Program-made: the position numbers and the translations under genes
Notes under the pieces: generated by a model
What the model was told of the DNA's origin: nothing
The model's database searches: none
Seen by the model: only the letters and a program-made list of their open reading frames with translations
Assembly: GCA_001310415.1 (NCBI GenBank)
Contig: BAXE01000007.1
Coordinates: 62,001 to 126,000, forward strand
DNA: 64,000 bases
Origin: Enterovibrio sp. JCM 19048
GTDB taxonomy: Bacteria > Pseudomonadota > Gammaproteobacteria > Enterobacterales > Vibrionaceae
Direction of reading: 5' to 3'
Part shown: positions 43,050 through 61,824 of the stretch, piece by piece
Layout of the letters: each line of letters starts with the position of its first letter
Numbering within the stretch: the stretch's first letter is position 1

Positions 43050-44181
43050 TCATTACCAATGTTCAACTGGTGTTGGAAGACGATGTCATCAATGGCTCGT
43101 TGGAAGTTGAAATGGCGTGATTCGCGCCATGTCTGATTCGCCAAGCCAGCAACCGGGCGCGATTGATGGTAATCAGGGTTGGTTGATGCCGGGCTTGATT
43201 GAACTTCACACCGACAACCTCGAAAAGTATTTCACGCCACGCCCAAAGGTCAGCTGGCCGCCGTTTTCAGCCATGGCGGCACACGACGCACAATTGATTG
43301 GCGCAGGTATCACCACTGTTTTAGATGCGATTGCAGTGGGTGATGTGCGCGATGGTGGTCACCGTCAGGAAAACCTCGATAACATGATCAACACTATTGT
43401 CCAGAGTGGTGAAAGAGGTCTGAACCGCGCCGAGCATTTTGTCCATATCCGCTGTGAGTTGCCCCATCATTCCACCGTGGAACTGGCATTGCGCTATCTT
43501 GATTTGGAGCAAACCCATATGGTGTCACTGATGGACCATTCGCCGGGTCAGCGTCAGTTCGTCAATCTCGACAAGTATTACGAATATTATCAGGGGAAAT
43601 ACAACCTCAGTGACGACGAAATGGCAGCGTTTGAAAAAGACCAGCGCGAGCAGTCTGCGCAATGGTCAGACAGCAACCGACGCACGATTGCAGAGCTGTG
43701 TCACGCTAAAAGGATTCCCCTTGCCAGCCACGACGATGCAACCCGTGCTCATGTCGAAGAATCCCGCGAGCTAGGCATGGTGTTGGCGGAATTCCCGACC
43801 ACGGTGGAAGCCGCGCAGCGCTCGCACGAACTGGGTTTGAAAGTGATGATGGGTGCCCCGAACGTGGTTCGCGGTGGTTCGCATTCAGGCAATGTGGCGG
43901 CACACGAACTGGCATCGCTCGGCGTGTTGGATGCACTTTCGTCTGACTACATTCCGGCAAGCCTGCTGGAAGCCGTTTTCCGTCTCGCGGACGACGAACG
44001 AAACGATATGGATTTGGCCGCCGCTGCAACGCTGGCCACGAAAAAGCCCGCATCAGCGCTGGGTCTGGCAGACCGGGGCGTGATCAAAGAGGGGATGCGA
44101 GCCGATATGTTGCTGGTGGAGCGTCATTTCAACCAGCCGTATGTGCAGCAAGTGTGGCGCTCCGGTCGTCGTGTGTTCTAA
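43046..44181 (+). CDS. phnM: PhnM, ribose-1-phosphonate triphosphate pyrophosphohydrolase (frameshifted near start)
   Basis: Amidohydrolase-fold enzyme that removes pyrophosphate before the PhnJ step. The N-terminal part [22 protein letters not shown] is joined, after adding one A to the AAA run near 43113, to [11 protein letters not shown]. Key segments: [13 protein letters not shown] with metal His and Asp, [12 protein letters not shown], and [13 protein letters not shown]. About 378 residues in all. Confidence 0.93.
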
Positions 44182-44192
44182 GGCGGAGATAT

Positions 44193-44782
44193 ATGCCGAA
44201 ATTGTTTTATGTGCTGGGCGCATCCGGTGCGGGGAAGGATTCATTGATTGATGCGGTAAGAGATCAGTTCTCCGATCGCCTGATGGTGGCACACCGTTAC
44301 ATCACACGTCCTGCTTCCGCAGGCAGTGAAAACCATGTGGCGCTTTCCGATGCGGAATTTGATCTTCGGGTCGAACGTGGGCTGTTCACCATGCAGTGGC
44401 GCGCCAACGGTATGCGCTATGGCGTGGGCAGGGAGGTGGAAAACTGGCTGGAAGCTGGCTGGATGTCATGGTGAATGGCTCCCGCGCCTACCTTCCTTTG
44501 GCTCAAGGGCTGTTTGGCAAGCAACTGGAAGTGGTATGGATTTCTGTTTCCCAGCAAGTGTTGCGTGAAAGGCTGGAAACGCGGGGCAGGGAATCGGCTG
44601 AAGAGATTGCCCAGCGCTTGGAGAGGGCAGTCGAATATGAGTCGTTGAAACCACATGATGCGATTTGTCTTGATAACAGCGGTGTGTTGGCAGATACAGT
44701 GGCGCAGTTTGCGTGTAGGCTGGATCAAAAGCTTTGTCAGACGTACAGCGCACAAAACCGTGCAAAAGCAGTGAAGCTCTGA
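44193..44782 (+). CDS. phnN: PhnN, ribose 1,5-bisphosphate phosphokinase (frameshifted)
   Basis: Makes PRPP from ribose 1,5-bisphosphate, the last step for the ribose part. P-loop GASGAGKDSLIDAVR, then HRYITRPASAGSENHVALS, like guanylate kinases. One base missing near 44461 restores WLEAGLDVMVNGSRAYLP. About 196 residues. Starts 12 bases after phnM with GGCGGAG before the ATG. Confidence 0.93.
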
Positions 44783-44846
44783 CAATAAGCGATTAACTTT
44801 ATGACATCGGGTTTTCTTGGCTTCTCAACCACTCATGGAAGGACAA

Positions 44847-45605
44847 ATGTTGCGACTGACTTTGCTGGGTACCGGTGCCGCGGGAGGCGTGCCGCTTTAT
44901 GGATGTGAGTGTCCGGCGTGCAAGAGGGCAACAGAACACCCCACCTTCGAGCGAAAGCCCTGCTCAGCCATGGTGGAATGGGGAAATGGAAGCGCCAAGG
45001 AACGCTTGCTGATTGATGCAGGGTTGATGGACTTACACTCGCGCTTTCCGGCAGAAACTTACCACGGTTTTTTGCTCACCCACTTCCATGTAGACCACGT
45101 TCAGGGATTGTTTCACCTGCGCTGGGGTACGGCTTCCCCCATCCCAGTGTGGTGCCCACCGGACGATCAGGGCTGCGCCGATCTGCTCAAGCATTCCGGT
45201 TGCCTGAACTTCCTGCCGACGATGACGCATGGAGAGCCGGAGAACATTAACGGTCTTCGTGTTACGCCGCTGCAAATGGCACATTCACGCCCAACGTTTG
45301 GCTATCTGTTGGAATACGGTGTGAAAAATATCGCTTATCTGACCGATACCGACGGACTTCCAGAAAATACGCTGTCATTTTTGAGTGAACTCCCACCGCT
45401 GGATGCGCTGATCGTTGACTGCTCTTTTCCGCCTGACCATTCAGGGCGAAACCACAACAACATCAACACCGTTACGCAAATCTACCTGGATTTGGCGCCC
45501 AAACGCCTGATTATCACCCATCTCGGTCATGATCTTGATGCTTGGCTGATGGAGCATGGCGTGCCTGAATGGCTCGAAATAGGCCGGGATGGAATGACGG
45601 TTTAA
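44847..45605 (+). CDS. phnP: PhnP, 5-phosphoribosyl 1,2-cyclic phosphate phosphodiesterase
   Basis: Intact 252 residues from ATG 44847 (AAGGA upstream). Metallo-beta-lactamase fold with THFHVDHVQG metal motif, GTGAAGGVPLYGCECPACK (extra zinc-binding Cys as in E. coli PhnP), LTDTDGLPENT and THLGHDLDAW. Opens the cyclic ribosyl phosphate released by PhnJ to ribose 1,5-bisphosphate. It is the last phn gene; there is no phnO here. Confidence 0.95.
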   Translation: MLRLTLLGTGAAGGVPLYGCECPACKRATEHPTFERKPCSAMVEWGNGSAKERLLIDAGLMDLHSRFPAETYHGFLLTHFHVDHVQGLFHLRWGTASPIPVWCPPDDQGCADLLKHSGCLNFLPTMTHGEPENINGLRVTPLQMAHSRPTFGYLLEYGVKNIAYLTDTDGLPENTLSFLSELPPLDALIVDCSFPPDHSGRNHNNINTVTQIYLDLAPKRLIITHLGHDLDAWLMEHGVPEWLEIGRDGMTV

Positions 45606-46958: not shown

Positions 46959-47707
46959 CTAGAGAATATTATTCCGGAGTACAAATTTGGTGAGATCGGT
47001 GCCTTTCTCTAGCGATAATCTCTCTGCGATCCGGTATTTGTAGGTTTCAATTGTTCTTGTGCTCAGGTTCAGTGCGCTGGCGATTTCCCGGGTTGAAAGG
47101 CCTGCTCCAATCAGTCTCAGTGTTTCATACTGACGTGGCGTCAACTGTTCCAGCATCGCGTGCTCTTGAATGTAGCAGCAGTTGATAGTGTTTAAGGATG
47201 CGAGAAGCTGGATTTTTGCCACAGCATTACCCAAACTTGAGCAAGCAGCGTCAGACTGTCGAGGTACTCCTGGCTGGTCTCCACGTGTTTGAAATAAGCA
47301 ATACTGACCCCCGCGTAGACTTCTTCAAAGCAGACGATAGGAATATTGCCATATTGCTTCACGCCTTCTTTTCCTAATGAAGCCAACCATTTCAGTTCGC
47401 TCTTTGCGATGGTTTTTTCATCATAAAAATACCACCCGCGACGCTTGTTTAATGACGTCAGAAATTTATCGATCTCCAAGCTTTTGTAGTATTCAACGGG
47501 CAGTCTTTTGTGGCTATAACGGGTGACAGTGATCAGGTCATTGGCGTCAATTTTGACCTTGGACATCGGAAAAATAGCCGTTCTGTCAATATCAAACACC
47601 TCCAGCGCTTCTTGGATATTGCTCAGTATGGTTTCCTGCAAAGTCTCTTTAGGGCTGCTTAACAGCTTTTGTTGGGACTGGAAGACGAATTCTAGATAGG
47701 GGTTCAA
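46959..47707 (-). CDS. LuxR-type transcriptional regulator (frameshifted)
   Basis: About 248 residues. The N-terminal 170 residues look like a GAF/PAS-like sensor (ALEVFDIDRTAIFPMSK, WYFYDEKTIAKSELKWLAS, VCFEEVYAGVSIAYF). The C-terminal LuxR helix-turn-helix has LTPRQYETLRLIGAGLSTREIASALNLS then TIETYKYRIAERLS. One break near 47217 separates them. The sensor part is not the acyl-homoserine-lactone type. It is divergent from the sulfatase operon, with 284 bases between, and is the best candidate for its regulator. Confidence 0.88.
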
Positions 47708-47915: not shown

Positions 47916-47930
47916 CGTAGTTCTACTACG
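47916..47930. promoter_or_regulatory. Candidate operator upstream of the sulfatase gene
   Basis: CGTAGT and ACTACG are perfect inverted repeats around TCT, about 60 bases before the sulfatase start and 210 bases from the divergent LuxR-type gene. LuxR-family activators bind such short dyads. Assignment is by position only. Confidence 0.45.
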
Positions 47931-47991
47931 TGTGATGTTGAGCACTTCATCTAAATTCATCGCCGAATCAATCCAATAGACGGGTTTTACG

Positions 47992-49569
47992 ATGAATAAA
48001 CAAAATATCCTAACCTTAGCGACGGGCGCGGTTTTAGCGTCTACTGCGACTACGGCAATGGCGACCACAGATACCAGCCGGCCAAACATCCTGGCAATTT
48101 GGGGTGACGACATTGGTATGGACAATATCAGTGCCTACACCCGTGGACAGGCAGGTCACTGGACACCAAACATTGACCGCATCGCCAACGAAGGCGTGCT
48201 GTTCACTGACTTCTATGGTGAGCAATCCTGTACAGCTGGCCGATCTGCATTTATTACCGGCCAGCACCCTATCCGTACCGGCCTGACCAAGGTTGGTATG
48301 CCGGGCGCGAAAGAGGGCATTCGAAAAGAAGACCCTACGCTTGCGACCATGCTGAAAGAAGAGGGCTATCTGACTGGCCAATTTGGTAAAAACCACCTTG
48401 GCGATTTGGATGAGCAACTTCCAACCAACCACGGCTTTGATGAGTTCTTCGGCAACTTGTATCACCTGAATGCAGAAGAAGAACCAGAGCATCCGGATTA
48501 CCCGCAAGACGCCGCGTTCAAAAAACAATTTGGACCGCGTGGTGTTATCCACTCATTTGCAGACGGCAAAATCGAAGACACAGGCCCGTTAACGGTTAAG
48601 CGTATGGAAACCGTGGATGACGAGTTTGCTGCAGCGGCTGTTGACTTCATTGAGCGCGCTCACAAAGAGAAAAAGCCTTTCTTCGTGTGGTTTAACTCAA
48701 CGCGCATGCATGTGTGGACTCACCTGAAAGAAGAATCTCAGGGTATTTCCAAACGTGGCGGCCTTTACGGCGACGGTATGATCGAGCATGACAACCATGT
48801 CGGTATGTTGCTGGACAAGCTGGATGAGCTGAAGATTGCTGACAACACCATCGTTTCTTACACCACGGATAACGGTGCAGAGAAGCTGTCTTGGCCTGAT
48901 GGCGGTACGGTGCGTTTCCGCGGTGAGAAAAACTCCTCTTGGGAAGGTGGTTTCCGTGTACCGGCAATGGTGCGTTGGCCAGGCAAGATCCCTGCGGGTC
49001 AAGTCGTAAACGAAATGGCAGCGCACAACGACTGGGTGCCAACCTTTATGGCTGCTGTGGGTGAAGAAAAGATTGTTGCAGAGTTGAAGAAAGGCAAAAC
49101 CCTGCAAGGTCAGAAATACAAGGTTCATCTGGATGGATACAACCTACTGCCAAAACTGATGGAAGGTAAATCAACCACGGCAGACGACAACAGCAACTGG
49201 CCGCGCAAGAACTTCTTCTATGCGGCTGATGATGGTCACATCTCAGCAGTTCGCATGGGCGACTGGAAAGTCATGTTCACCGTGAACAATTGCCATAGCA
49301 TTGAGACTTGGCAGTGTCAGTTCGAACCACTTCGTTTGCCTCTAATCATGAACTTGCGTCAAGACCCATATGAAGTTGCAGAACTAGAGGGTATTGGTTA
49401 TTCAAAATGGCGCGTCGAACATATCCCATATATGTACATGGCGGCTGCTCAAACCTCTGAATTCCTAAACACCTTCGTGGAATTCCCACCACGTCAGGTA
49501 CCTGGCAGTTTCTCTGTCGACAAGATCGTCGAGAAGATGGGTATCTGGGAACGCGCGCAATACAAATAA
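47992..49569 (+). CDS. Periplasmic sulfatase, formylglycine-dependent
   Basis: Intact 525 residues; signal peptide to about residue 24 (TTAMA/TT). RPNILAIWGDDIGMDN carries the metal-binding Asp pair. The Cys-type sulfatase motif reads CTAGRSAFITGQ, in which Cys is converted to formylglycine; CxAGR suits both enzymes of the anaerobic maturase kind and FGE. GQFGKNHLGD gives the Lys and His of the active site, and YTTDNGAEKLSWPDGG the second metal loop. It hydrolyses sulfate esters, probably of algal or host polysaccharides or small aryl sulfates; substrate unknown. The radical-SAM maturase lies right downstream. Confidence 0.95.
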   Translation: MNKQNILTLATGAVLASTATTAMATTDTSRPNILAIWGDDIGMDNISAYTRGQAGHWTPNIDRIANEGVLFTDFYGEQSCTAGRSAFITGQHPIRTGLTKVGMPGAKEGIRKEDPTLATMLKEEGYLTGQFGKNHLGDLDEQLPTNHGFDEFFGNLYHLNAEEEPEHPDYPQDAAFKKQFGPRGVIHSFADGKIEDTGPLTVKRMETVDDEFAAAAVDFIERAHKEKKPFFVWFNSTRMHVWTHLKEESQGISKRGGLYGDGMIEHDNHVGMLLDKLDELKIADNTIVSYTTDNGAEKLSWPDGGTVRFRGEKNSSWEGGFRVPAMVRWPGKIPAGQVVNEMAAHNDWVPTFMAAVGEEKIVAELKKGKTLQGQKYKVHLDGYNLLPKLMEGKSTTADDNSNWPRKNFFYAADDGHISAVRMGDWKVMFTVNNCHSIETWQCQFEPLRLPLIMNLRQDPYEVAELEGIGYSKWRVEHIPYMYMAAAQTSEFLNTFVEFPPRQVPGSFSVDKIVEKMGIWERAQYK

Positions 49570-49584
49570 GTCGCGTATTGACAC

Positions 49585-49610
49585 CGGCAGGAGGCTTCTC
49601 CTGCCGTATT
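49585..49610 (+). terminator. Hairpin between sulfatase and maturase genes
   Basis: CGGCAGGAG and CTCCTGCCG form a perfect 9-bp stem with a 4-base loop, followed by TATTT. It should partly separate high sulfatase expression from lower expression of the genes downstream. Confidence 0.85.
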
Positions 49611-49674
49611 TCGCCTTGCTATCAGCACTTAAACCAAAACAAAAATAACAATAATTCGCCAAGGAATGTTTTAG

Positions 49675-50969
49675 ATGACCACGCAAAAGTTGCAGTCATT
49701 TGACCCAACAAAGACCATCAAGCGTCTGAATATTATGACCAAGCCAGCCGGGTCGAAATGCAATATCGACTGTCAGTATTGCTACTACCTGAGCAAAACA
49801 GCCTTACTTGCCAGGGAAGGGGAATGTGTTAAGCAGATGGATGAGGCTGCGCTAGAGCACTACATCCGAAGCTACATTGAACAGCAAAACTATCCGGAAA
49901 TCGTTTTTCATTGGCAGGGAGGTGAACCAACCCTGCTGGGTGTCAATTACTTCAGGGATGTGGTTCGTCTCCAGAAGCAATATTGCCCTGAGGGCGTCAC
50001 CATTCGCAACAATTTACAGACAAACGGCATTTTGCTTGATGATGAGTGGTGCCGATTTTTGGCTAAGAACAATTTCCTGGTTGGGTTGAGCATTGATGGG
50101 CCGGAGCTTATTCACAATACCTATCGCGTCAACCGGGCTGGGCGCGGTACGTTCGCACAAACGATGAAGGGCGTATCGTTTTTACATAAGCATGACGTGT
50201 CTTTCGCAACGCTAACCTGCGTAAACAATATCACTGCAGCCAATGCGCTGGAGGTTTACCGTTTTCTGCGCGATGTCGTGAAGTCTTCCCAAATGCAGTT
50301 CATCCCCATTGTTGAACCTAAAAGTTTCCGCCACACCGCGCCACAGCATTGGCAAGCCGAAGAAATTGTCTTTCAAGGCATGCCAGAAACAGAGCCAAGC
50401 CATCCCAACTCAATTGTCGAGCCTTGGTGCGTATCCGACCAACAATGGGGCGAATTCCTTTGCGCCGTGTTTGATGAGTGGCTGGAAAACGATATTGGTC
50501 AGATCAACGTGCCTTATTTTGAAGCGTGCGTAGAAGCATGGATGGGACGTGTAAACCGCTCTGCACCTTGGCACCAATGTGTGGCAAAGGCTTGGCTGTG
50601 GAAGCCAATGGCGATGTCTATTCCTGCGACCATTACGTCTATCCACAATACAAGCTCGGCAACATGTACCAGTCTACGTTGGACGAACTTCAGTTCTCGC
50701 CACGTCAGGAGAGCTTTGGTCGCGCGAAAGAAGGCGACCTGCCAAAACAGTGCCGTGAATGCAAATTTCAGTTTGCTTGCTTTGGTGAGTGTCCAAAAAA
50801 CCGTTTCCTCAAAACTTTGGAGGGAGAAACCGGCCTCAACTACCTGTGTGCAGGCTGGAAGCGCTTCTTCTCTCATGCTGACCCCTATATCGAGATGATC
50901 GTCAAATCGATGGGGTACAAAGTGCACCGACAAATCAATCGTGAAGCGATGGCGATAAGGTTTAATTAA
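49675..50969 (+). CDS. Anaerobic sulfatase maturase, radical SAM/SPASM (frameshifted)
   Basis: anSME-type enzyme that oxidises the sulfatase Cys to formylglycine without oxygen. The radical-SAM motif is CNIDCQYCYY (residues 29-38), then HWQGGEPTLLG and LSIDGPELIHNTYR. The SPASM domain near the C-terminus has CKFQFACFGECPKNRF, with further Cys in APMCGKGLAVEANGDVYSCDH. One base missing near 50555 joins the two parts. About 430 residues, typical. Its next gene starts in the stop codon (TAATG). Confidence 0.94.
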
Positions 50970-51520
50970 TGGTGATGGCGGTTGTGATAAAACGAACGAC
51001 GCGACGTGTTTGTCTGCTTGTTGCCTTGTGTGTGAGTCCGTCAGTATTTGCTGTTGAGTCGAAGATGGCGGCATTCAGTGATGCGCAGCAGCAAACTATC
51101 AGTGAATTTAAATCGCTGGCTTATACCACCATGGCGAGGCGATATACCCAGTATTCCAAACTGTTTAACCTGTGCCAGCAGCTGCCAGAGGATGCCGCTT
51201 GCGGGGAGCGTTATGACAGTGCTGAGTCTGAGTATCTGGCGGTGAAATCGGTTCACGGCGTGTTTTCTATGTTGTTGGAAGAAGGGATGACAAGGCTTCC
51301 CTTGCCAGAAATGGCCTATCGGGAAGTCTCAGATGCCCTGATTGATTTGGGTGTGATGCCAAAGCAAAACGTGGACTCAGCCATTGACGCCAATGCGTTG
51401 CTCGCCGTCGTACAACGTTGGCAACGCAAGCATCAATTGCCTGCCAGCGAGTACATCACCATGTTGGATTACGTGATGATCCGCACCGATGCTTTTGCGT
51501 CAGATATTCAGGTGCAGTAA
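50969..51520 (+). CDS. Exported protein of unknown function
   Basis: Intact 183 residues with a signal peptide (VCLLVALCVSPSVFAVES). The mature part is helical with two Cys (LFNLCQQLPEDAACGERY) that could form a disulfide. No family recognised. Translationally coupled to the maturase gene and 5 bases from the next gene, so it belongs to the same unit. Confidence 0.75.
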   Translation: MVMAVVIKRTTRRVCLLVALCVSPSVFAVESKMAAFSDAQQQTISEFKSLAYTTMARRYTQYSKLFNLCQQLPEDAACGERYDSAESEYLAVKSVHGVFSMLLEEGMTRLPLPEMAYREVSDALIDLGVMPKQNVDSAIDANALLAVVQRWQRKHQLPASEYITMLDYVMIRTDAFASDIQVQ

Positions 51521-51525
51521 CAGCG

Positions 51526-52554
51526 ATGATAGGTAAACAGACAGTGCTGGCACTGGTGGTGTGGTTAGCCTTTGGTGGCCCTGCAATAGCAGACTCACAA
51601 TACCAAGTGGTTGCTGCGAGTGAGCAATATTACGCGGAATTGTCACAGAACTTTCATGCTGATGTTTCTTCCCGCGTTGAAGCGACGTTGGCACTGGGCC
51701 AGTATCAGGGTGCGAATGCATTGATTGGCATTGCGCGAGCGTCGAGAGATCTGAACCCCGACCTGAGAATTGCGGCAATTCAGGCGGTACGTCAATGGTC
51801 AGATCTCGCGAAATGGGATGTGGTATCACCGCTGTTGGCTGATGAAGTGGAGAGCGTAAAACGTGCTGCCGTGTATGCGTTATTACCACTACGTCACTTA
51901 CTTAACGCAGAGCAATCTGCATATGTAGATCGTCAAACTGAAAGCTATCTGAACAGGTTAGACGACCATCCCCAGAGCCTGCTTGAAAAGGCTCAACTGA
52001 ACAGTCTGATGACTCGCTATGCAGAGGCAGAAGCCTTTTACACAGCATTGTTAGTCAGCGAGCATGATGCGGTTTTTGCCCGCGCTTTGACGGTGGCCTA
52101 CAGCCAGTTTCTGCTACAGCAGCAACGAGCAAGTGACGCTGTCACACATCTTGAGGCAGTACTCTTATCGCAAACGGAGCAACCCACCTTTAGCGACAGT
52201 CAACAAGCCTCGATTCACTACCAATTGGGCATTGCTTACCTGAAAACGGGTCGCAGTGAAGCTGCAACTATGCAGTTTGAAACAGCGCATACGCTAGATA
52301 GCAATCAGCCCCAATATCTTTATACCTATGCGACCGCATTGCAGGCCAAACAGCCTGAAAGAGCCGCGACATTGTTCCTGCAGCTTTACGATGCCACACA
52401 AGACCCAAGGTCACTGTATGCAACATGCCAGTCGCAGTTGATGGCAGCGATGGATGCCAGCTCATGCATCAGCGCCTTACGCACAATGGCACCTGCGGAT
52501 GTCGCAGACACCCTCGTCAACCAATATTCAACACCTCAAACCGACAATAAGTAG
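51526..52554 (+). CDS. Exported HEAT-like/TPR repeat protein
   Basis: Intact 342 residues from ATG 51526 with a signal peptide ending near residue 23 (GPAIA/DS). The first half shows repeats like DLRIAAIQAVRQWSD and ESVKRAAVYALLPLR (HEAT-type). The second half shows TPR helices (ASIHYQLGIAYLKTGRSEAATMQFETAHTLDS). Repeat proteins of this type act as binding platforms; here the partner could be the exported sulfatase or the VWA/BatD proteins. The next gene, moxR-like, starts 6 bases later. Confidence 0.78.
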   Translation: MIGKQTVLALVVWLAFGGPAIADSQYQVVAASEQYYAELSQNFHADVSSRVEATLALGQYQGANALIGIARASRDLNPDLRIAAIQAVRQWSDLAKWDVVSPLLADEVESVKRAAVYALLPLRHLLNAEQSAYVDRQTESYLNRLDDHPQSLLEKAQLNSLMTRYAEAEAFYTALLVSEHDAVFARALTVAYSQFLLQQQRASDAVTHLEAVLLSQTEQPTFSDSQQASIHYQLGIAYLKTGRSEAATMQFETAHTLDSNQPQYLYTYATALQAKQPERAATLFLQLYDATQDPRSLYATCQSQLMAAMDASSCISALRTMAPADVADTLVNQYSTPQTDNK

Positions 52555-52560
52555 AACCCG

Positions 52561-53540
52561 ATGACAACTGCACATGACGCACTCTCTCAACTGGCGACGC
52601 GCCTCAACCACGCTGTTATTGGTCAGCAACATGTGATTAATGCTCTGATGATTGCTTTGCTTACTGATGGACACCTGCTTTTGGAGGGTTTGCCCGGCAC
52701 GGCAAAAACCCGTTCGGTAAAAATGCTGGCCGATGCGCTGAACATTGGTTTTGGCCGGATTCAGTTCACACCGGACTTGCTGCCGTCAGACGTGACAGGC
52801 TCAGAGATTTACCACGAAGAGCAAGGGAAGCCGACCATTACCTTTAAGCCAGGGCCGATCTTTAATGCCATTGTTCTGGCGGATGAAATTAACCGTGCGC
52901 CGGCCAAAGTACAAGCTGCGCTGCTTGAAGCCATGGCGGAAGGAACGGTCACGGCAGCGGGAAAAACCATGGCGTTGCCACAGCCTTTTATGGTGCTGGC
53001 AACACAAAACCCGGTTGATCAGGAAGGCACATATCCACTGCCTGAAGCACAGATGGACCGCTTTTTTATGAAAGTCGAAGTGGACTATCCCGATGTGGAC
53101 GCCGAACTCGACATTATCCGACTGGTGCGCCAGGAAGAGCTGCAAGCCCGCAATGAACAGCAAAGTGTGCTGGAACCTATCAATATCGAGCACATTTTCT
53201 CGGCTCGTGAAGCCATTAAGCGTTTACACATCGCAGAAAGTGTCGAGCGTTATATCGTAGAAATTGTGATTGCCACGCGCAGACTGATCGGTATCCGCAT
53301 ACTGATTTGTCACGCTGGATCGAAGTGGGGGCGAGCCCTCGCGCCAGCATTGCACTAGAGCGAGCTTCCCGCGCTAATGCCTGGTTAGCAGGCCGCGACT
53401 TTGTCACGCCGGATGATGTCAGAGCCGTGGTTTACAGCGTATTGGGTCACCGTATTGCCCTGAGTTTTGAAGCTGTTTCTGGTGGAACCAGCACCAAAAT
53501 GGTGATCGATGAGATTCTGCATCACGTGATGTTGGCTTAA
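52561..53540 (+). CDS. MoxR-family AAA+ ATPase (frameshifted)
   Basis: About 326 residues. Walker A EGLPGTAKTRSV near residue 45, Walker B IVLADEINRAPAKVQ, sensor 1 ATQNPVDQEGTYPLPEAQMDRF. One base missing near 53300 restores a C-terminal part beginning SRWIEVGASPRASIALER (sensor 2). MoxR proteins act with DUF58 and VWA-domain partners as chaperones for metalloprotein or complex maturation. Here it heads such a set. Confidence 0.94.
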
Positions 53541-53561
53541 AACGCAAATAAGAACGCTGTA

Positions 53562-54516
53562 ATGCTAGATAAACAATCTGCAAGAGGGGATGCACGTATT
53601 TATTCGAGCTTGCATCGCCTGCAAACGCTGAGCGCATTGGCTGCGAGCGTATCGCTCCGCCCTTGCCAGTATGCGCGCTGCCATACCTCAGGAAAGCACA
53701 TCGCAAAAGCTAGAGGGCGGGGTCTGGATTTTGCCGAGTATCGTCACTATCAGGCGGGTGATGACATTCGGGCGATGGACTGGCGTGTCACGATGCGCAC
53801 CAAGCAACCTCATATCCGTGTGTTTTCGGAAGAAAAAGAGTTGCCCGTGATCCTGATGGTTGATCAACGGCTAAGTATGTTTTTCTCTTCGCAACAGACT
53901 ATGAAATCTGTCGTTGCGGCAGAACTTGCCAGCCTGTGTGGGTGGAGTGCCTTAAAGGAGGAGATCGTGTTGGCGCGCTGGTTTTTAACGATGAAAGTGT
54001 CAACTGGTTTCCCCCTAAACGTTCTCACAAGCACTTGCTGCAGGTGTTGGCGCAGGTGCATCTTTTCAATCAGGCACTTGGGGTTGATAAACCTGTTACC
54101 CGCCAGAACAGCTCATCGTTGGACCTTGCACTGACGAAACTATTGCAGACGAAAATGGCAGGATCCTTGGTCATCATCCTTTCCGATTTTAAAGGGATAG
54201 AAAGCAAAGCAAGCCAAACCTTGCAAGCGGTGTTGGCCAAAAACGAAGTGATCGCTGTGTCGGTGAAAGACCCGCTGGAAGTGAGTTTATCTCCCTCACA
54301 CAGTGCCTGTGTCAGTGATGGTATTGAGCAGGTTCTCCTCCCCAGTGATACGCCTGCATTACTGGAAAAATATGAGCAGCACAATCGTGAAAAAATGAGG
54401 CGTTAAAGACGCGCTTGTTGAACCAAGGTGCCATGTTTTGCGAGGTATCATCCGAGGGTGAGCACCTTGTTCACTTCCAGCAAGCGATGAACGGTGGAAA
54501 ACAACGTGGCAAATAA
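53562..54516 (+). CDS. DUF58 protein, MoxR partner (two frame breaks)
   Basis: Cytoplasmic DUF58 protein. FAEYRHYQAGDDIRAMDWRVTMRT is the defining motif. It continues with IRVFSEEKELPVILMVDQRLSMFF, a degenerate VWA-like start. A missing base near 53942 joins GDRVGALVFND; the end near 54403 is broken again, and the corrected frame continues LLNQGAMFCEVSSEGEH to a stop at 54516. About 315 residues. Adjacent on both sides to MoxR and DUF4381 genes. Confidence 0.85.
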
Positions 54517-55002
54517 CCCATTACTGCAATCACTGGTGGCACCGCCGATGCCAGAGCCGATTTCCTGGTTGCCACAAACGCTTGGTTGGAAAGTCGTGGC
54601 AGTCGTTTTGCTGCTTGTTGCATTGCAACAAAGCATTCAGCGGCGGTGAGATGGCGGCAACATCGCTATCGGCGAGAAGCAATGACTAAGATCCGAATCC
54701 TTCAACATTCCCTGACGGATAACAATCGCGTGGCGTCGATAAAAGCCTTAAACCGTGTGTTAAAGGAAACCGCCGTTTTCAGCTTTGGAGACAAAACGGT
54801 TGCGTCATTGCAACGAGAGCATTGGCTCCAGTTCCTGAACCAAAGCGGTGCGGAGAAACTCGATGAAACCTTGGGGGACGCATGGCAAATCGCGCTGTAT
54901 GTGCCCGAAGAACGTGTGGCGTTAGACGATAAACAATGCCGCATGTTGCTCGAATTTGCATTGGTCTGGGTGGCTACGCATAAGGTGAACGATGAACATT
55001 GA
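54507..55002 (+). CDS. DUF4381 membrane protein (frameshifted)
   Basis: About 164 residues. GTG 54507 overlaps the DUF58 end. Start reads MANNPLLQSLVAPPMPEPIS with WLPQTLGW, then one membrane helix (VVAVVLLLVALQQSI), a break near 54630, then basic RWRQHRYRREA and a soluble C-terminal domain with VASIKALNRVLKETAV. These are hallmark features of DUF4381, a usual member of moxR/VWA operons. Overlaps the next gene by 11 bases. Confidence 0.82.
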
Positions 55003-56052
55003 ATTTGATCAGAGCTGGGCGTTTGCTTTGCTCATCCTGCCTTTTTCATCAGGCGTTTTGCCCCTGACCACCACACCAAACAACCCTCGGTGCATGTTTC
55101 ATTCTTTGATGTATTGGTCAATGAACTGGGCCTTAAGGCATCAAAAGGCGCGAAGCGTTTGTCATCACGTCGTTGGCAGCGGGCTTCAGTCTGGATCACT
55201 TGGGTGTTATTGGTAGTGTCGATGGCTAAGCCTGTGTGGCTGGCTGAACCTCAGGTGAGGGAACTGTACGGCAGAGATTTGCTGGTGGTTGCAGACTTAT
55301 CAGGCTCGATGTCAGAAACGGACTTTGTTGACCCCTATGGTGAGAAGACCTCACGGTTAAGCGCCATAAAAAGCGTATTGAAAGATTTTGCCAAAGAACG
55401 AAAAGGGGATCGTCTGGGATTAATTTTGTTTTCGGACTTTGCCTACCTACAAGCTCCTTTCACTGCCGATCATAGCGCCTGGTGTGAACTGCTAGAGGAA
55501 GCAGAAGTCGGCATGGCGGGTCAAAGCACCCATTTGGGTGATGCTATTGGACTAGGGCTAAAAACCTTTCAGCAACAACCGATGCTTAAAGAGAAAACGA
55601 GCAAAGAAAAAGTCATGCTGGTACTGACTGACGGCAATGACACGGGCAGTCTCGTTCCGCCGATTGAAGCTGCAAAAATTGCTAAACACCTTGGTGTCAG
55701 GATTTATATGGTCGCCATGGGGGACCCCAATACTGAAGGCGAATCTGCATTGGACATGACAGTGTTGAAGCGTGTCGCTGACATCACAGGTGGACAGGCG
55801 TTTCTTGCCATGTCACGTGCTGAACTTACCGACGTACATCAAACCATTGCATCTCTCGAACCACAGCAATTTGAGAGCTTTCATTACCAGCCGAAAGAAT
55901 CACTTCACGTGATTCCGCTGATCATTATTGCTCTCAACCAGTTAGCCATGATGACGTATTGCATGATATCGCAGCGTTTAAGCGGTGCGATAAAGACAGA
56001 ATTCCGAACTAATCATCGTGTGAACGTAGAAAAGCGAGGAGCAGGCTTGTGA
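54992..56052 (+). CDS. VWA-domain membrane protein, BatA-like (frameshifted near start)
   Basis: About 353 residues. N-terminal membrane segments, broken near 55043 (a T missing in TTTTT), then WITWVLLVVSMAKPVW, then the VWA domain with MIDAS motif VADLSGSMS (DxSxS) and LTDGNDTGS (second metal site), and a C-terminal helix HVIPLIIIALNQLAMM. The A-domain should face the periplasm. Overlaps the next gene by ATGA-like GTGA. Confidence 0.88.
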
Positions 56053-57657
56053 ACATGGATGCATTGAGTTCTTTTCATTTTCTTCGCCCGTACTTTTTGT
56101 TCTTGATAGTGCCTTTCGCGATATTGCTGAGCCTCAAGTGGCATCAGAAGACCCAACAAGCGATGCACTTTAAATTCATCCCTGTTCATATTCTCAATGT
56201 CTTGAAACTGGGCGAGAAAGGGTGGCGCAGCAGTTGCCGCTCAAACTGTTGAGTGTGGTGTGTGTGCTTTTGGTCATAGCGCTCGCGGGACCTGCGTGGG
56301 AAAAAGAACCGTCCCCGTTTGGAGAGGATCATTCTGATCTAGTCATCGTATTGGACGTGTCAGCATCCATGCAGGAAAAGGATGTTGCTCCGTCACGATT
56401 GGAGCTGGCGAAGTACAAATTGCAGGATTTACTGGCCAAACGTGGAGGCGGTAGAACAGCGTTAGTGGTGTATGCGGGCAGTGCGCACATCGCGATGCCG
56501 CTAACACTGGATACTCAGGTATTTACACCGCTTTTAGACGCGATTTCCCCAAATATCATGCCGAGGGAGGGAAAGTTTCTGTCGAAGGCGATACCGCTTG
56601 TTGAGCAACTCAGTCGAGAATCATTGGCAATGACGGTGCTGGTGGTTAGCGATGCGGCAGACAAGCATGATGTAACGGCATTTTCGGATTTTGCCGGGCG
56701 CAACTCTCATCATCTGCTGGTGTGGGGCATGGGCAATGAGGAAAGAGAAGCAGCAATACCGTTCGAGCCAGATTCACTGATGCATTGGCGAAGGCAAACG
56801 GCGGTGATTTTCAAACCGTTACGGTGGATAACCGCGATGTCGATACGTTGAGCAAACGCGTTGCACAAAACCTACTTATTCAGCAAGACAACAACATGCC
56901 TTGGGTAGATGCAGGATATTACTTGGTGTTTGTTATCGCTGCGTTGGCTTTACTGTGGTTTCGCAAAGGTTGGCTGGTGACTTGGTGCTTGGTCGGTAGT
57001 GTCTCGCTTTTCAGTGCCTTACCGATGAAGGCAGAGGCAGCCGACTGGCAAATCGCAGATTTATGGCTGACTGGCGATCAACAAGGGTGGGTCTGGTTTA
57101 AAAAGGCGGAATACACAAAGGCCGCCGAGGCGTTTGATTCCAATAGTTGGCGAGCGACTGCCCATTTCCTTGCTGGGAACTACTCAGCCGCAGAGCAGTA
57201 TTACCTGCGCACAGACAGTCTGTCTGCCCGTTTTGGTGCTGCATCAGCACTGGCACATCAACGGGAATATGTAGCGGCCAAGCGCATGTTTGCCGATATT
57301 CTCGCTGAGTCTCCCGACTTTCCCGGTGCGAAACATAACTATCAGTTGATGGTGGAAATTATCACGTTTATTGAGCAGCACACTAAATCCCAAGGCGAAA
57401 GCGCTGAACGGCAATCCAGCAAAGAGTTGGGAGACAAACCTAAAACCAGCGAAGGAGCGGAAGCAACGGTTCAGCGCGATCAGTTGATCGAAGAAACGCT
57501 GAGTTCAGAGGAAATACTTAACGACCCTGGTATGAATGAAAAATGGATGCGACGCGTGGGCAGCGATCTGTCGGGCTTTTTACAGATGAAATTTGTCCTT
57601 CAACTCGATAAACGCCAAGAAATTCCCAGAGAACAGCAACCAGGGAGTCAACAATGA
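56049..57657 (+). CDS. VWA-TPR membrane protein, BatB/BatC-like (two frame breaks)
   Basis: About 535 residues. N-terminal membrane helix, second helix (LSVVCVLLVIALAGPAW), VWA domain with MIDAS VLDVSASMQ, another helix near the middle (YYLVFVIAALALLWF), then a TPR part (SARFGAASALAHQREYVAAKRMFADILAESP) and a charged tail. Breaks near 56225 and 56785. Fusion of VWA and TPR parts in one protein is seen in this family. GTG start 56049 has GAGGAG upstream; ATG 56055 is the alternative. Confidence 0.87.
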
Positions 57658-58882
57658 TTAAGTCGTGCGCCATTTCCCTTTGCTTGCTGTTCAGTGTTTC
57701 GGTCAATGCTGGCTTCTCATCTGAGGCTGTTACTTTACGAGACCTTTTGGCTGGGCGTCATGTGCTGATTGATGCTTATCTTCCTCCAAAGCGGATTATG
57801 TGGTGGGGGAGCAAGTCATACTGCACGTAGAAGTGGCGACCGACCAATGGTTTGTGAAAGGGGCAAAAATTGCGGATTTTTCGTTGCCGAACGCCTTGGT
57901 ACTCAACCATCAGGCCAACAATATCAATTCTGTGGTTAGAAAGCATGGCCGTCGGTACGCAAGCCAGATCGTTGAAATTCCTTTGTACCCGCAGACGGAA
58001 GGAAGGTTTGTTATCCCATCGCTTGCCGTTGAGTTTACCGTTAAGCATGGCAATGAGAGTGTGTCCGGGATGCTTGAGACAACACCTGTTGCGTTTGATG
58101 TGCGTTTGCCGTCACCAGAATTTTGTCGACAAATGCGTGGGTGGTTGGGGAACGCGTCACTCTGTCTGAAACAGTTGGACGTGTTCAGGCTGACATTGAC
58201 GATGGGGATACCCTTCGTGTCGGCGATGTGATTACCCGTGGCGTGCAATTAAACGGAGAAGCAACGGTATCCATGCTGATGCCAAACCTCATTCAGAGTG
58301 AAGACTATGAACAGCTTGGGCTCGTACTTATCTCGCTGAAGACAAACGGGAGGACAGGCTAGTACGCGGCTTTAGCCAAGCCTCGCTGACAGAATCTGTT
58401 TCAGTAGTGCTGGAAGAAGCAGGAGAGGTACATTTTCCTGCTATTTCCTTGTTTTGGTGGGATACGGAAGAGCAGCAACAGAAAGAGCTCACGCTACCTA
58501 GCCATCAGTTTGTTGTGAAGCACACGCCATTGTCTTTTTCCATGCGTATTGGAAAGAGACGGCGATATGCGCAGTGGCAATTTTACTATTACTGTACGGT
58601 GGCTATCGGATGGCTATTTACATGATGTATTTACATAAAGTCGATAGATTGCCACTGGCCGTTCAGTTTTGGCTCGCTCTACTCTCCAATAACCTTGGAC
58701 GTTGCGAAATCGTAATTTGCCGCAAAATCAAACATCGAACTGGCAAATATCAGATGAATCAAAACTCAACCCAGTCACCAAACAATATTATTGACAGTTA
58801 CACCAAGCAAAAATACAGCCTTTCAAATTGCAGGGTGCGAAAGCGTTCACTAATTAGGATCTGGTTTGGAATGGGCTGGTGA
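57654..58882 (+). CDS. BatD-like oxygen-tolerance/adhesion-type protein (four frame breaks)
   Basis: Exported protein with signal CAISLCLLFSVSVNAGFS, then immunoglobulin-like domains (YVVGEQVILHVEVATDQWFV; FVIPSLAVEFTVKH) typical of BatD. A C-terminal helix appears after the last break (AVAILLLLYGGYRMAIYMMY). Breaks near 57785, 58125, 58355 and 58570 leave a plausible protein of about 408 residues. This density of breaks in one gene is the highest in the window. The gene may really be decayed, or just poorly sequenced. Confidence 0.78.
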
Positions 58883-59987: not shown

Positions 59988-61824
59988 ATGCATAAGTGCA
60001 TTCTCATTACACTTGTTGGCATCATTTACAACAAATGCTGAAGGCGCTCACGAAGCAGATATCCTCCCTGTTTCCTCTCTCCACAAAAACCAAACGTGGC
60101 TCAATCTACTACACCATGAACCCGGTTTGTTTGGGTCAGAAAGTCTCATAAACAGCGCCGACTTTTTTCTTTCTCCTGATGGCAAGAATGATGCTGCAGC
60201 GGAGCTGCGGGCGACGTTGAAAGCGTTCAAGTCTGATCCTCAAACGCAATGCCGATTTCCCGCAAGAAAAATGTGGTTGGAACAACAGTTACCGGACTTA
60301 GATTTTCCAGTCGCCGAATGTGGCGATTATGCGGCTTACATGAAGGCGTTTGCGGCAGAAAGTGTCAGCCTGATATATGCCAGTGGCTACTTGGGTAATC
60401 CTGCCTCTATGTACGGGCATTTGCTACTGAAATTTAATAGCTCCCAAAACCATGAGTTTCTTGATAACACATTTAATTATGGCGCCCGCGTACCTGATGG
60501 GGAGAATAAGTTCGTATACATCTTTCAGGGTATTACTGGCGGTTATTCCGGACAATTTGCCAACCAAAAATACCACCATCAAAACCTCACTTACAATGAA
60601 TCAGAATTAAGGGATTTGTGGGAGTATCGACTTCGCCTGTCACAGAACAAGGTTAACTTCCTGTTGGCTCATTTATGGGAGTTGGAAAATAGCAATATGA
60701 CGTACTATTTCTTCACGGAGAACTGTGCGTACCAGTTAGCCAAAATTCTGGAAATGGTCACGGGAGTGCAGCTAATCGCTGAAGGGAAACTATGGGTGAT
60801 GCCATTTGATATTGTCATGATGTTGAATAAACCCGAAGCAAAAACGTTTGTTGATGATGTTATTTATCATGGTTCACGACAAGAGCAACTGTATCAGCGT
60901 TTTACCCAACTTAATGACGAAGAAAAAACAACCGTTGCTAATATTATCGACGCGCCATTGCAAGGTGTAGAGAAGCAATTTAATGACCAATCAACAGTCA
61001 GTGCCTTGCGGATCATTGATACCCTCTATGACTACTATGCTTATATCAATGTGAAAAACGACGGTTTAAGCGATGTGCAGAAGGCCAAGCTTAAGAAACT
61101 TCTTGCGCTAAGGTTCAGATATCCGGCAGAGAAAACGGAATGGAAAGTCGACAAAAAGACGCCACCTCATAAAGCCCAAAACACGGCCATGTTTCAGGCT
61201 TCCCCAATCTACAACGATTCCTTTGGTGAGGGCTTGGAGCTTCGGTTCCGCGCTAACTATTACGATCTGTTGAATGTAAATGCTGCGCGTATTGAAAACT
61301 CTGCATTGAATACTTTTGACCTGACACTTCTTTATACCAAAGAGGAAGAAAGGGTTCGACTGAGAGAGTTTACGCTCATAGATATTGTTAATTTGAACCT
61401 TTCTCAAACTGGGCTTCCAGAGGATAGCGAATTAGCGTGGGGGATTTCCGCGGGATACAGACCAACTGCTCTCGATTGTATCGATTGCTCCAATACTTAT
61501 TTCGAGGGCTTTGTTGGCAAAAGTTGGGAAACTGCTGACAACTTCGTGAACTATTTAGCGTTAGCCGGAGAAGTTCAATTAAATTCATTAAAGGACATTG
61601 AATTCTTCAGTGGTCCTGAGGTTGGGGGGGTATTAACCATCGCTCCTTATTGGGTTGGCTCAATTAAATTAGGTGGTTATTTTAATTTAAACAAAAATTG
61701 GCAATACGATAATCATTTGACATGGGAACAACGATTTTTTGAACATCAAGCATTTGATGTCAGGACATCTGTTCGATATGACCAAGGGTTTGAATATGCC
61801 GTGAATCTATCTATTTATTGGTGA
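59988..61824 (+). CDS. DUF4105 (Lnb-like N-terminal) periplasmic protein
   Basis: About 610 residues. The frame from TTG 60013 onward is intact, with SLIYASGYLGNPASMYGHLLLKF (Lnb N-terminal papain-like motif with Cys/His-type catalytic pattern around YGHLLLKF) and NMTYYFFTENCAYQLAKILE, where Cys could be catalytic. The C-terminal 200 residues look like an outer-membrane beta barrel (alternating, ending IYW). ATG 59988 (MHKCILITLV) gives a signal-like start, but a one-base change near 60018 is needed to join it; otherwise TTG 60013 starts a protein with no full signal. Coupled to the DUF3015 gene. Confidence 0.82.

Follow-up and report, generated by a model that had tools for sequence, protein, structure and literature searches.

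A type of exported sulfatase found in Vibrionaceae is coupled to its own set of MoxR, DUF58, DUF4381, VWA, and BatD genes. We studied this association in a window of 64,000 nucleotides from Enterovibrio sp. JCM 19048 (positions 62001-126000 of contig C7, BAXE01000007.1), whose genome assembly spans 5.27 Mb in 70 contigs and is 87.5% complete. The sulfatase and the set lie in one cluster at 47992-58882 of the window, on the + strand. We propose that the set is a sulfatase-dedicated relative of the mxaRSCKL genes and acts after formylglycine formation, probably by loading or opening the Ca2+ site of the enzyme. We put the probability of this reading at roughly 0.45. The sulfatase is likely the client of the set, and Ca2+ as the cargo is a supported guess with a little less than even odds.

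The cluster consists of ten genes. An earlier note, made by a model from the letters of the window, had listed all ten on the same strand, and its order and span are right. The first gene encodes an exported type I sulfatase of the Cys type (47992-49569; 525 amino acids; PF00884, E 2e-49). After a gap of 105 bases follows an anaerobic sulfatase maturase, anSME, with Radical_SAM and SPASM domains (49675-50969). Two exported proteins come next: a small all-helical one that matches no Pfam family, here called X1 (50969-51520), and a HEAT/TPR solenoid with weak TPR and HEAT matches (51526-52554). The remaining six genes form the set: a MoxR AAA+ ATPase with AAA_3 and AAA_lid_2 domains (52561-53540); a DUF58 protein (53562-54516; PF01882 in both of its pieces); a DUF4381 protein (54494-55002; PF14316), whose start is approximate (GTG 54494 or 54506); VWA1, which is BatA/MxaC-like (54992-56052; PF00092); VWA2, which has a TPR tail and is BatB-C/MxaL-MxaK-like (56055-57657; PF13519); and a BatD-like protein (57654-58882; PF13584, 27.2 bits against a cut-off of 24.1). 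From the maturase to BatD, gaps are at most 21 bases and four neighboring pairs overlap, in line with the note's figure of 25 bases or less with overlaps. The start and stop codons of the window genes were confirmed at these coordinates, the DUF4381 start being one of two candidates.

A sulfatase type with its own MoxR group

Genomics establishes a lasting and specific coupling. The window sulfatase and the MoxR of locus L028 were searched against the same 150 Vibrionaceae genomes; distances were taken between match starts, and the listed places were carried by hand into the distance and genome counts. Both type borders were set after seeing the lists. The sulfatase border falls in an identity gap (54% to 48%), and the MoxR border between E values of 1.7e-109 and 8.8e-104, where identities touch (57-58% versus 53-57%). 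Both types occur in 73 genomes, the sulfatase type alone in two, the MoxR type alone in none, and neither in 75. The Fisher value for this co-occurrence is not a true probability, because the genomes are related. Of the 89 linked-type MoxR genes, 83 have such a sulfatase at a distance of 6 kb or less; of the 62 ordinary MoxR genes listed, none has one within 20 kb. Each of these counts includes one member of a third MoxR branch (G131:C1:426945 in the 89, G129:C1:775181 in the 62). From the sulfatase side, 128 of the 150 listed places with at least 54% identity are within 10 kb of a linked-type MoxR. These numbers bear out the earlier note's claim that the MoxR set is coupled to the sulfatase. 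They also show that homologous sulfatases do not usually lack the MoxR block, since 73 of the 75 genomes with the sulfatase type carry the linked MoxR.

The closest sulfatases follow the same pattern. Among the 15 with at least 76% identity (the window's own included), 12 adjoin MoxR, one is split from it by a contig end (G123), and two do not adjoin it (G044 and G131). Regarding the two sulfatase-only genomes, G110 has a shortened MoxR piece, and G143 has the sulfatase with a cytochrome and no set in the stretch (L204). Another eight genomes carry sulfatases of 45-48% identity and no linked-type MoxR.

Presence of the set tracks the sulfatase type rather than the maturase. In G072 (L193) and G110 (L203, with the shortened MoxR), a Cys-type sulfatase adjoins the set, and neither genome yields a maturase match at E 1e-60; either might still have a more distant one, or a formylglycine-generating enzyme (FGE). 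Conversely, at the nearest unlinked sulfatases (45-48%), all eight loci lack the set and seven have an anSME-like gene. The cluster resembles known sulfatase-anSME pairs, with a type I sulfatase adjoining a radical SAM maturase, but differs from these nearest ordinary sulfatases in having the MoxR set. Five sequence positions and a 16-residue insertion are seen only in the eight unlinked sulfatases; we assign them no meaning.

Ordinary sets lack the sulfatase. The ordinary gammaproteobacterial Bat-type set has the same six gene kinds in mostly the same order, but its MoxR belongs to a separate group. No sulfatase or maturase was found at E 1e-4 beside it in any of 20 class-level loci, which were chosen from the best places listed with some short-contig ones omitted; six are cut by contig ends, and MoxR is lost in two. 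Likewise, neither gene was found in nine family, order, and own-genome loci (L059 and L171, L173-L179), apart from one chance maturase match at E 0.006. L172 was not counted among them, since its MoxR belongs to the third branch. The own genome's ordinary set (L059; G000:C2:178001-198000) has no BatD label at the expected place.

MoxR phylogeny separates the two kinds of set. A quick tree without bootstrap was built from 71 rows (70 left of 94 after near-copy removal, plus the window piece). Ordinary sets form one group of 25 rows (100, starred). The linked type forms a group of 39 rows, 33 with a sulfatase or maturase in view and six without, at a Shimodaira-Hasegawa-like approximate likelihood ratio (SH-aLRT) of 91, which is under the starred level. 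The first MoxR piece of the window sits in a starred group of 16 rows (99), mostly X1-type, 15 of which are sulfatase-linked. The tree is untidy in places: the Shewanella row L132 is unplaced outside the linked group, and an Agarivorans row of type A (L096) falls with type C rows (types described below). L172 and L180 represent the third MoxR branch in Vibrionaceae, which has its own set; in L172 the order is DUF4381-VWA-VWA-MoxR-DUF58, with no sulfatase in view. The sulfatase tree places the eight unlinked rows together as a separate group (86, with a long-branch warning) and likewise unites the X1-type sulfatases (100, starred).

Shared ecology is a very improbable explanation of this pattern. 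Two modules that are useful in the same habitat might travel together without acting on each other, and the cluster does look like an accessory trait: among the 18 genomes of the genus, the HEAT/TPR gene has no match in the other 17, and the next-best sulfatase is 45% identical to that of the window. The separate MoxR group, the tight spacing, the several arrangements, and the near-perfect co-occurrence all argue against mere co-travel.

Arrangements in relatives and the exported proteins

The sulfatase and the set stay together in several gene arrangements. Within the family, we inspected genomic stretches, about 15-20 kb long, that contain sulfatase, maturase, HEAT, or MoxR matches; genes were labeled by BLAST from the window proteins and their relatives. 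The 80 named loci are the best 80 of 235 relatives from the maturase alignment, so the sample leans to close kin. They belong to Vibrio, Aliivibrio, Photobacterium, Moritella, Agarivorans, Aeromonas, and Shewanella, with one record titled Vibrionales bacterium. At least one set gene lies in the flank of 62 of the 80, and all six lie in that of 39; the other 18 are without the set, six of them being shorter than 15 kb owing to contig ends. Of the 20 X1-type loci, 16 show set genes.

Type A comprises a LuxR gene, often divergent, and sulfatase-anSME-X1-HEAT-MoxR-DUF58-DUF4381-VWA1-VWA2-BatD. It is found in the window, Vibrio, an Aliivibrio metagenome-assembled genome, and Agarivorans. Type B, from Vibrio, Aliivibrio, and Photobacterium, with a similar form in Aeromonas, has one or more sulfatases, often an octaheme cytochrome-HEAT-TPR fusion, the MoxR-to-BatD run, LysR, often a phosphodiesterase, an FGE-like gene, anSME, and HEAT. 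Type C has LysR and sulfatase-anSME-MoxR-to-BatD without HEAT (L184-L190, L196). In type E, anSME and LuxR are divergent from sulfatase-FGE-like-MoxR-to-BatD (L191, L192). Shewanella loci L132 and L140 have the set and the sulfatase back to back, followed by anSME-HEAT. Loci L193-L195, L198, and L203 show a looser form, in which sulfatase and set are divergent and the stretch contains no maturase. It was rejected as an independent arrangement: a maturase lies about 14-15 kb off in G135 and G129, similar to type B, and on another contig in G096, G072 and G110 being the two genomes with none at E 1e-60. In G131, an X1-type-like MoxR set and a sulfatase are on different contigs (L181, L182), with no maturase, X1, or HEAT label beside either and a 59% maturase elsewhere on C1, a pattern that looks like a cluster coming apart.

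Common to at least four arrangements are the sulfatase and MoxR-DUF58-DUF4381-VWA-VWA-BatD. X1 and HEAT are missing in some, and the maturase can be about 10-15 kb away. The exact ten-gene combination described in the earlier note thus holds for type A but not as a general unit, because X1 and HEAT are missing or the maturase is distant or was not found elsewhere. The note had suggested looking for co-occurrence of the maturase with the exported proteins and MoxR: a HEAT/TPR gene follows the maturase within two open reading frames (ORFs) in 77 of the 80 named loci, and set genes are present in 62.

Many type B loci have an octaheme c-type cytochrome (8 CXXCH) fused to a HEAT/TPR solenoid beside the sulfatases (L045:15113-17371, - strand; L066:2859-5201, - strand; also L192). 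The fusion also occurs with a sulfatase and no MoxR set in the stretch (L201, L204, L111, L130). An FGE-domain protein (L045:4783-5661, + strand, and similar) is found in 58 of the 80 named maturase loci. That of L045 matches PF03781, and its nearest NCBIfam model, GldK, is far below cut-off. The catalytic Cys pair of FGE lies near the C-terminus. We rejected a functional FGE in type B, as there is no Cys pair in the ten C-termini listed.

The client could be the maturase or the multiheme cytochrome, with the sulfatase as a mere neighbor, but we regard this as quite improbable. Some sets lie by an octaheme cytochrome with the sulfatase at least 96 kb away (L041, L039), and the MoxR-VWA pair RavA-ViaA is reported to be linked to anaerobic respiration. 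Yet in G072 and G110 the sulfatase adjoins the set with no maturase at E 1e-60, X1-type and C-type loci keep the sulfatase and the set with no cytochrome in view, and a maturase alone does not bring the set.

A role in sensing or regulation is also improbable. Here the set would report the state of the substrate or the sulfatase, or would place the sulfatase in a glycan-binding complex. LuxR- or LysR-type regulators do stand beside many clusters. However, these regulators vary between arrangements and the set is constant, and no glycan-binding or uptake gene was seen recurring in all arrangements. We found nothing in favor of two options raised in the earlier note, export and a sulfated-glycan-binding complex.

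X1 and the HEAT/TPR protein are conserved helical proteins. Both begin with signal-like stretches by simple hydropathy in four loci. In a 21-row alignment, X1 has two invariant Cys (69 and 78), one of them in an invariant F-N-x-C-Q. Its model is all helical, with a mean predicted local distance difference test score (pLDDT) of 87.3 and no Foldseek match at E 0.001 or better. PG_binding_2 matches weakly in three of the 21 rows (best E 0.0014), and the SleB N-terminal domain matches at E 2.4; this is too weak for us to claim that the C-terminal part is peptidoglycan-binding-like. Inspection of its sequence, without a direct profile comparison, gives no support to the idea that X1 is a remnant of the cytochrome part, since the two conserved Cys of X1 are different ones. 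The HEAT/TPR model is also all helical (mean pLDDT 91.5), with TPR superhelices among the best PDB matches; Cys 306 and Cys 319 of the modeled chain are an invariant pair. Matches to this protein occur in 73 of the 150 family genomes (own included). X1 and HEAT/TPR stay by the maturase where MoxR is out of view (L088, L095, L097). Their tie to the sulfatase-maturase pair may thus be closer than that of MoxR.

Homology to Mxa and a proposed third stage of sulfatase maturation

The window sulfatase is a type I (S1) enzyme by family (PF00884), by its C/S-x-A/P-x-R signature, and by its Ca2+-ligand motifs. It has DD, C-T-A-G-R from residue 80, D-N, and K, and its closest solved chain is 7aj0 (E 2.9e-50). 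Asp-Asp, C/S-T-A-G-R, Asp-Asn, and Lys are kept in all linked-sulfatase variants listed (45-50 of 54 rows, by motif). Asp-Asp and Asp-Asn are counterparts of Ca2+ ligands in the S1 sulfatases of PMC10154612 and PMC8746622, where Ca2+ is described as essential. Judging from these motifs, the linked sulfatases should be Ca2+ and formylglycine enzymes. Cys and Ser types both occur among them, which fits anSME.

The maturase is an anSME. Its two window pieces match TIGR03942 with 309.9 and 147.3 bits, each below the cut-off of 349 because of the broken frame; intact relatives score 484 (L080) and 513 bits (L188), above that equivalog cut-off. At E 1e-60, the maturase is found in four of 369 class genomes, the window's own included. 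In one of the others, G414, the one of its two MoxR places that is listed is on a different contig from the maturase. Another, G452, is absent from the genomes listed with MoxR, and the third is G373.

The six set genes have the features expected of a MoxR-Bat machine. AAA_3 (PF07726, E 9e-60) and PF17863 (AAA_lid_2, E 1.2e-21) match the MoxR pieces of the window. P-loop and Walker B are present in at least 62 of 63 rows, as expected of a MoxR AAA+ ATPase. DxSxS occurs in 87 of 88 VWA1, there in its D-L/I-S-x-S form, and in 80 of 92 VWA2. These motif counts take in near-copies. MoxR, DUF58, the VWA proteins, and BatD (43.5 bits in L080, cut-off 24.1) stand in one run, as in Bat-type sets. The BatA N-terminal domain PF07584 stays below cut-off, with 17.8 versus 25.9 bits for VWA2 of L028 and no match at E 0.001 in L080. 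In the four loci judged by simple hydropathy, membrane spans are seen in VWA1, VWA2, and BatD and none in MoxR or DUF58. An anti-phage defense system was rejected as a candidate: among seven proteins scanned with PADLOC (the maturase, DUF58, DUF4381, and BatD not among them), there was only a weak DolB match of MoxR (E 3e-4).

Parts of the set are homologous to the Mxa proteins, which serve Ca2+-dependent methanol dehydrogenase (MxaFI). Profile-profile comparison paired MxaR with MoxR (100%), MxaC with VWA1 (99.3%), MxaS with DUF58 (98.1%), MxaL with VWA2 (95.6%), and MxaK with the TPR tail of VWA2 (88.3%). MxaI was found in six of the 369 class genomes, and four of the six stretches have a usable Mxa run; each mxa profile was built from 3-4 of the six loci, and the set-side profiles are from relatives. 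The sulfatase set resembles mxaRSACKLD: in both, homologous genes for MoxR, DUF58, a pair of VWA proteins, and a TPR part run together next to an exported enzyme that uses Ca2+. It differs in that this neighbor is a sulfatase and not methanol dehydrogenase (MxaI, PF02315, was not found in the window's genome), in having DUF4381 and BatD with MxaA and MxaD undetected, and in the added maturase and, often, X1 and HEAT.

The pairs NorQ/NorD, RavA/ViaA, and CbbQ/CbbO also combine a MoxR AAA+ ATPase with a VWA partner that has a metal ion-dependent adhesion site. Unlike the sulfatase set, they are two-protein systems with other clients, and they are not known to include DUF58, DUF4381, and BatD. 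A review (PMC11845868) assigns mxaACKLD to Ca2+ insertion and mxaRSEH to maturation or its control, and NorQD is described as inserting metal (PMC13036017; PMC9976466). In NorQD, a VWA finger lies in the MoxR pore, and twisting has been proposed to open the target for the metal (PMC13036017).

We propose an assembly route for a type I sulfatase that is destined for the periplasm or for secretion. First, anSME would turn the active-site Cys (or Ser) into formylglycine in the cytoplasm. Second, the sulfatase would be exported by way of its signal peptide. Third, the dedicated MoxR machine would remodel the sulfatase, most likely admitting the essential active-site Ca2+. MoxR and DUF58 are probably cytoplasmic; their partners would be the two VWA proteins, anchored in the membrane, DUF4381, and BatD, which would have an exported part. 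X1 and HEAT/TPR may be exported escorts. Models for the third step are the Mxa set, as it is thought to act on methanol dehydrogenase, and NorQD, which loads iron into nitric oxide reductase. We propose this third stage based on motif conservation, the part-by-part match to Mxa, the Ca2+ role of Mxa, and the NorQD mechanism. The order of events and the escort role are inferences.

A broader version is unlikely. The MoxR-DUF58-DUF4381-VWA-VWA-BatD set, widespread but an orphan in function, could be a general loader of divalent metals for exported enzymes, with the sulfatase as one natural client. Sulfatase biogenesis would again gain a third stage, following formylglycine formation and export, in which cytoplasmic ATP powers the work from across the membrane and the exported X1 and HEAT/TPR serve as helpers.

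The set may instead be a chaperone for the folding, assembly, or placement of the sulfatase, or of a sulfatase complex with X1 and HEAT/TPR, without any involvement of Ca2+. This is possible, though on the unlikely side. It draws on the same coupling evidence as Ca2+ loading does. The presence of HEAT/TPR at 77 of 80 maturases, and of X1 and HEAT/TPR behind the maturase even without MoxR in view, points to protein-protein work. RavA-ViaA is tied to fumarate reductase and NADH dehydrogenase (PMC10585395; PMC3893208). On the other hand, where the role of a compared set has been described, as for Mxa and Nor, it is connected with metal loading.

Several observations weigh against Ca2+ loading of the sulfatase by the set. 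Close sulfatases lack the set nearby in 22 of the 150 listed places, and so do those of named loci in Moritella (L095, L097) and Aliivibrio (L088). For six of the 89 sets no such sulfatase is nearby, which in G123 and G079 may reflect a contig break. An octaheme cytochrome, a possible other client, also stands next to many type B sets. The own genome's second sulfatase, with a maturase in several pieces (L060; G000:C28:18001-38000), has no MoxR label in the 20 kb stretch that holds it. Regarding Mxa, MxaA and MxaD, both among the Ca2+-insertion genes mxaACKLD, had no detectable counterpart, with no profile match above 20% in eight families tried (the MxaD profile had two rows), and DUF4381 and BatD matched no Mxa family. 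The membrane side of the set was judged by simple hydropathy, which is no proof of topology. Finally, other type I sulfatases obtain Ca2+ without a known set; for example, recombinant PyuS of Pedobacter carried Ca2+ (PMC8746622).

Reading frames, neighboring genes, and significance

Seven of the ten genes have broken frames, with at least ten frame changes in total. The breaks are near 50544-50556 in anSME, between 53280 and 53289 in MoxR, near the start of VWA1, at several places in BatD, and within DUF58, DUF4381, and VWA2; the frames of the sulfatase, X1, and HEAT/TPR are open. Relatives have mostly open cluster genes, although some are broken too (e.g., anSME in L184 and VWA2 in L098). The share of sequence in ORFs of at least 250 amino acids is 0.53 for the window and 0.31-0.77 for five other stretches of its genome; in relatives it averages 0.79 over 29 stretches, with a minimum of 0.62. 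The second anSME of the genome is likewise in pieces. This suggests an indel-rich assembly, which the 87.5% completeness fits, and makes assembly error likelier than local decay as the cause of the broken frames. We rejected the idea that the whole cluster is an assembly artifact, because relatives carry the same run with mostly open frames.

A LuxR-type regulator probably belongs to the unit. It lies divergent from the sulfatase (46959-47707, - strand) and is also interrupted (pieces 46959-47234 and 47192-47707). Its C-terminal piece has a GerE domain, and both pieces match the LuxR gene of relatives by tblastn. A LuxR-labeled gene is present in 18 of the 20 named X1-type loci, not always directly adjoining the sulfatase. 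Further upstream, 43117-45605 holds a run of genes resembling PhnM, PhnN (with a broken frame), and PhnP of phosphonate use. Downstream of the cluster, 60013-61824 encodes an Lnb_N/DUF7840/DUF7843 protein.

Each part of the system is known, and the client and the lasting coupling look new. Searches aimed at a sulfatase-MoxR set coupling in the open-licence PubMed Central literature gave no description of it (for one of them, among the 8 papers listed of 138), in agreement with the earlier note, which knew of no established description. Among papers that mention MoxR, sulfatase, and operon together, the sulfatase passage of PMC7159879 concerns another system.

MoxR is broadly distributed, with a relative at E 1e-60 in 210 of the 369 class genomes. 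To our knowledge, what the sets around such MoxR genes act on is mostly unknown. The sulfatase branch makes set function directly testable, because its enzyme is easily assayed by fluorescence and both the cofactor and the maturase are known. If our reading is true, sulfatase biogenesis, usually told as formylglycine formation alone, would have an extra step. More speculatively, such a step might explain the poor activity of some recombinant sulfatases. In Vibrio-related marine bacteria, the genes for this group of sulfatases usually stand beside those for a remodeling machine of their own, and in many cases the activating enzyme is encoded there too. The machine may therefore take part in completing the sulfatase.

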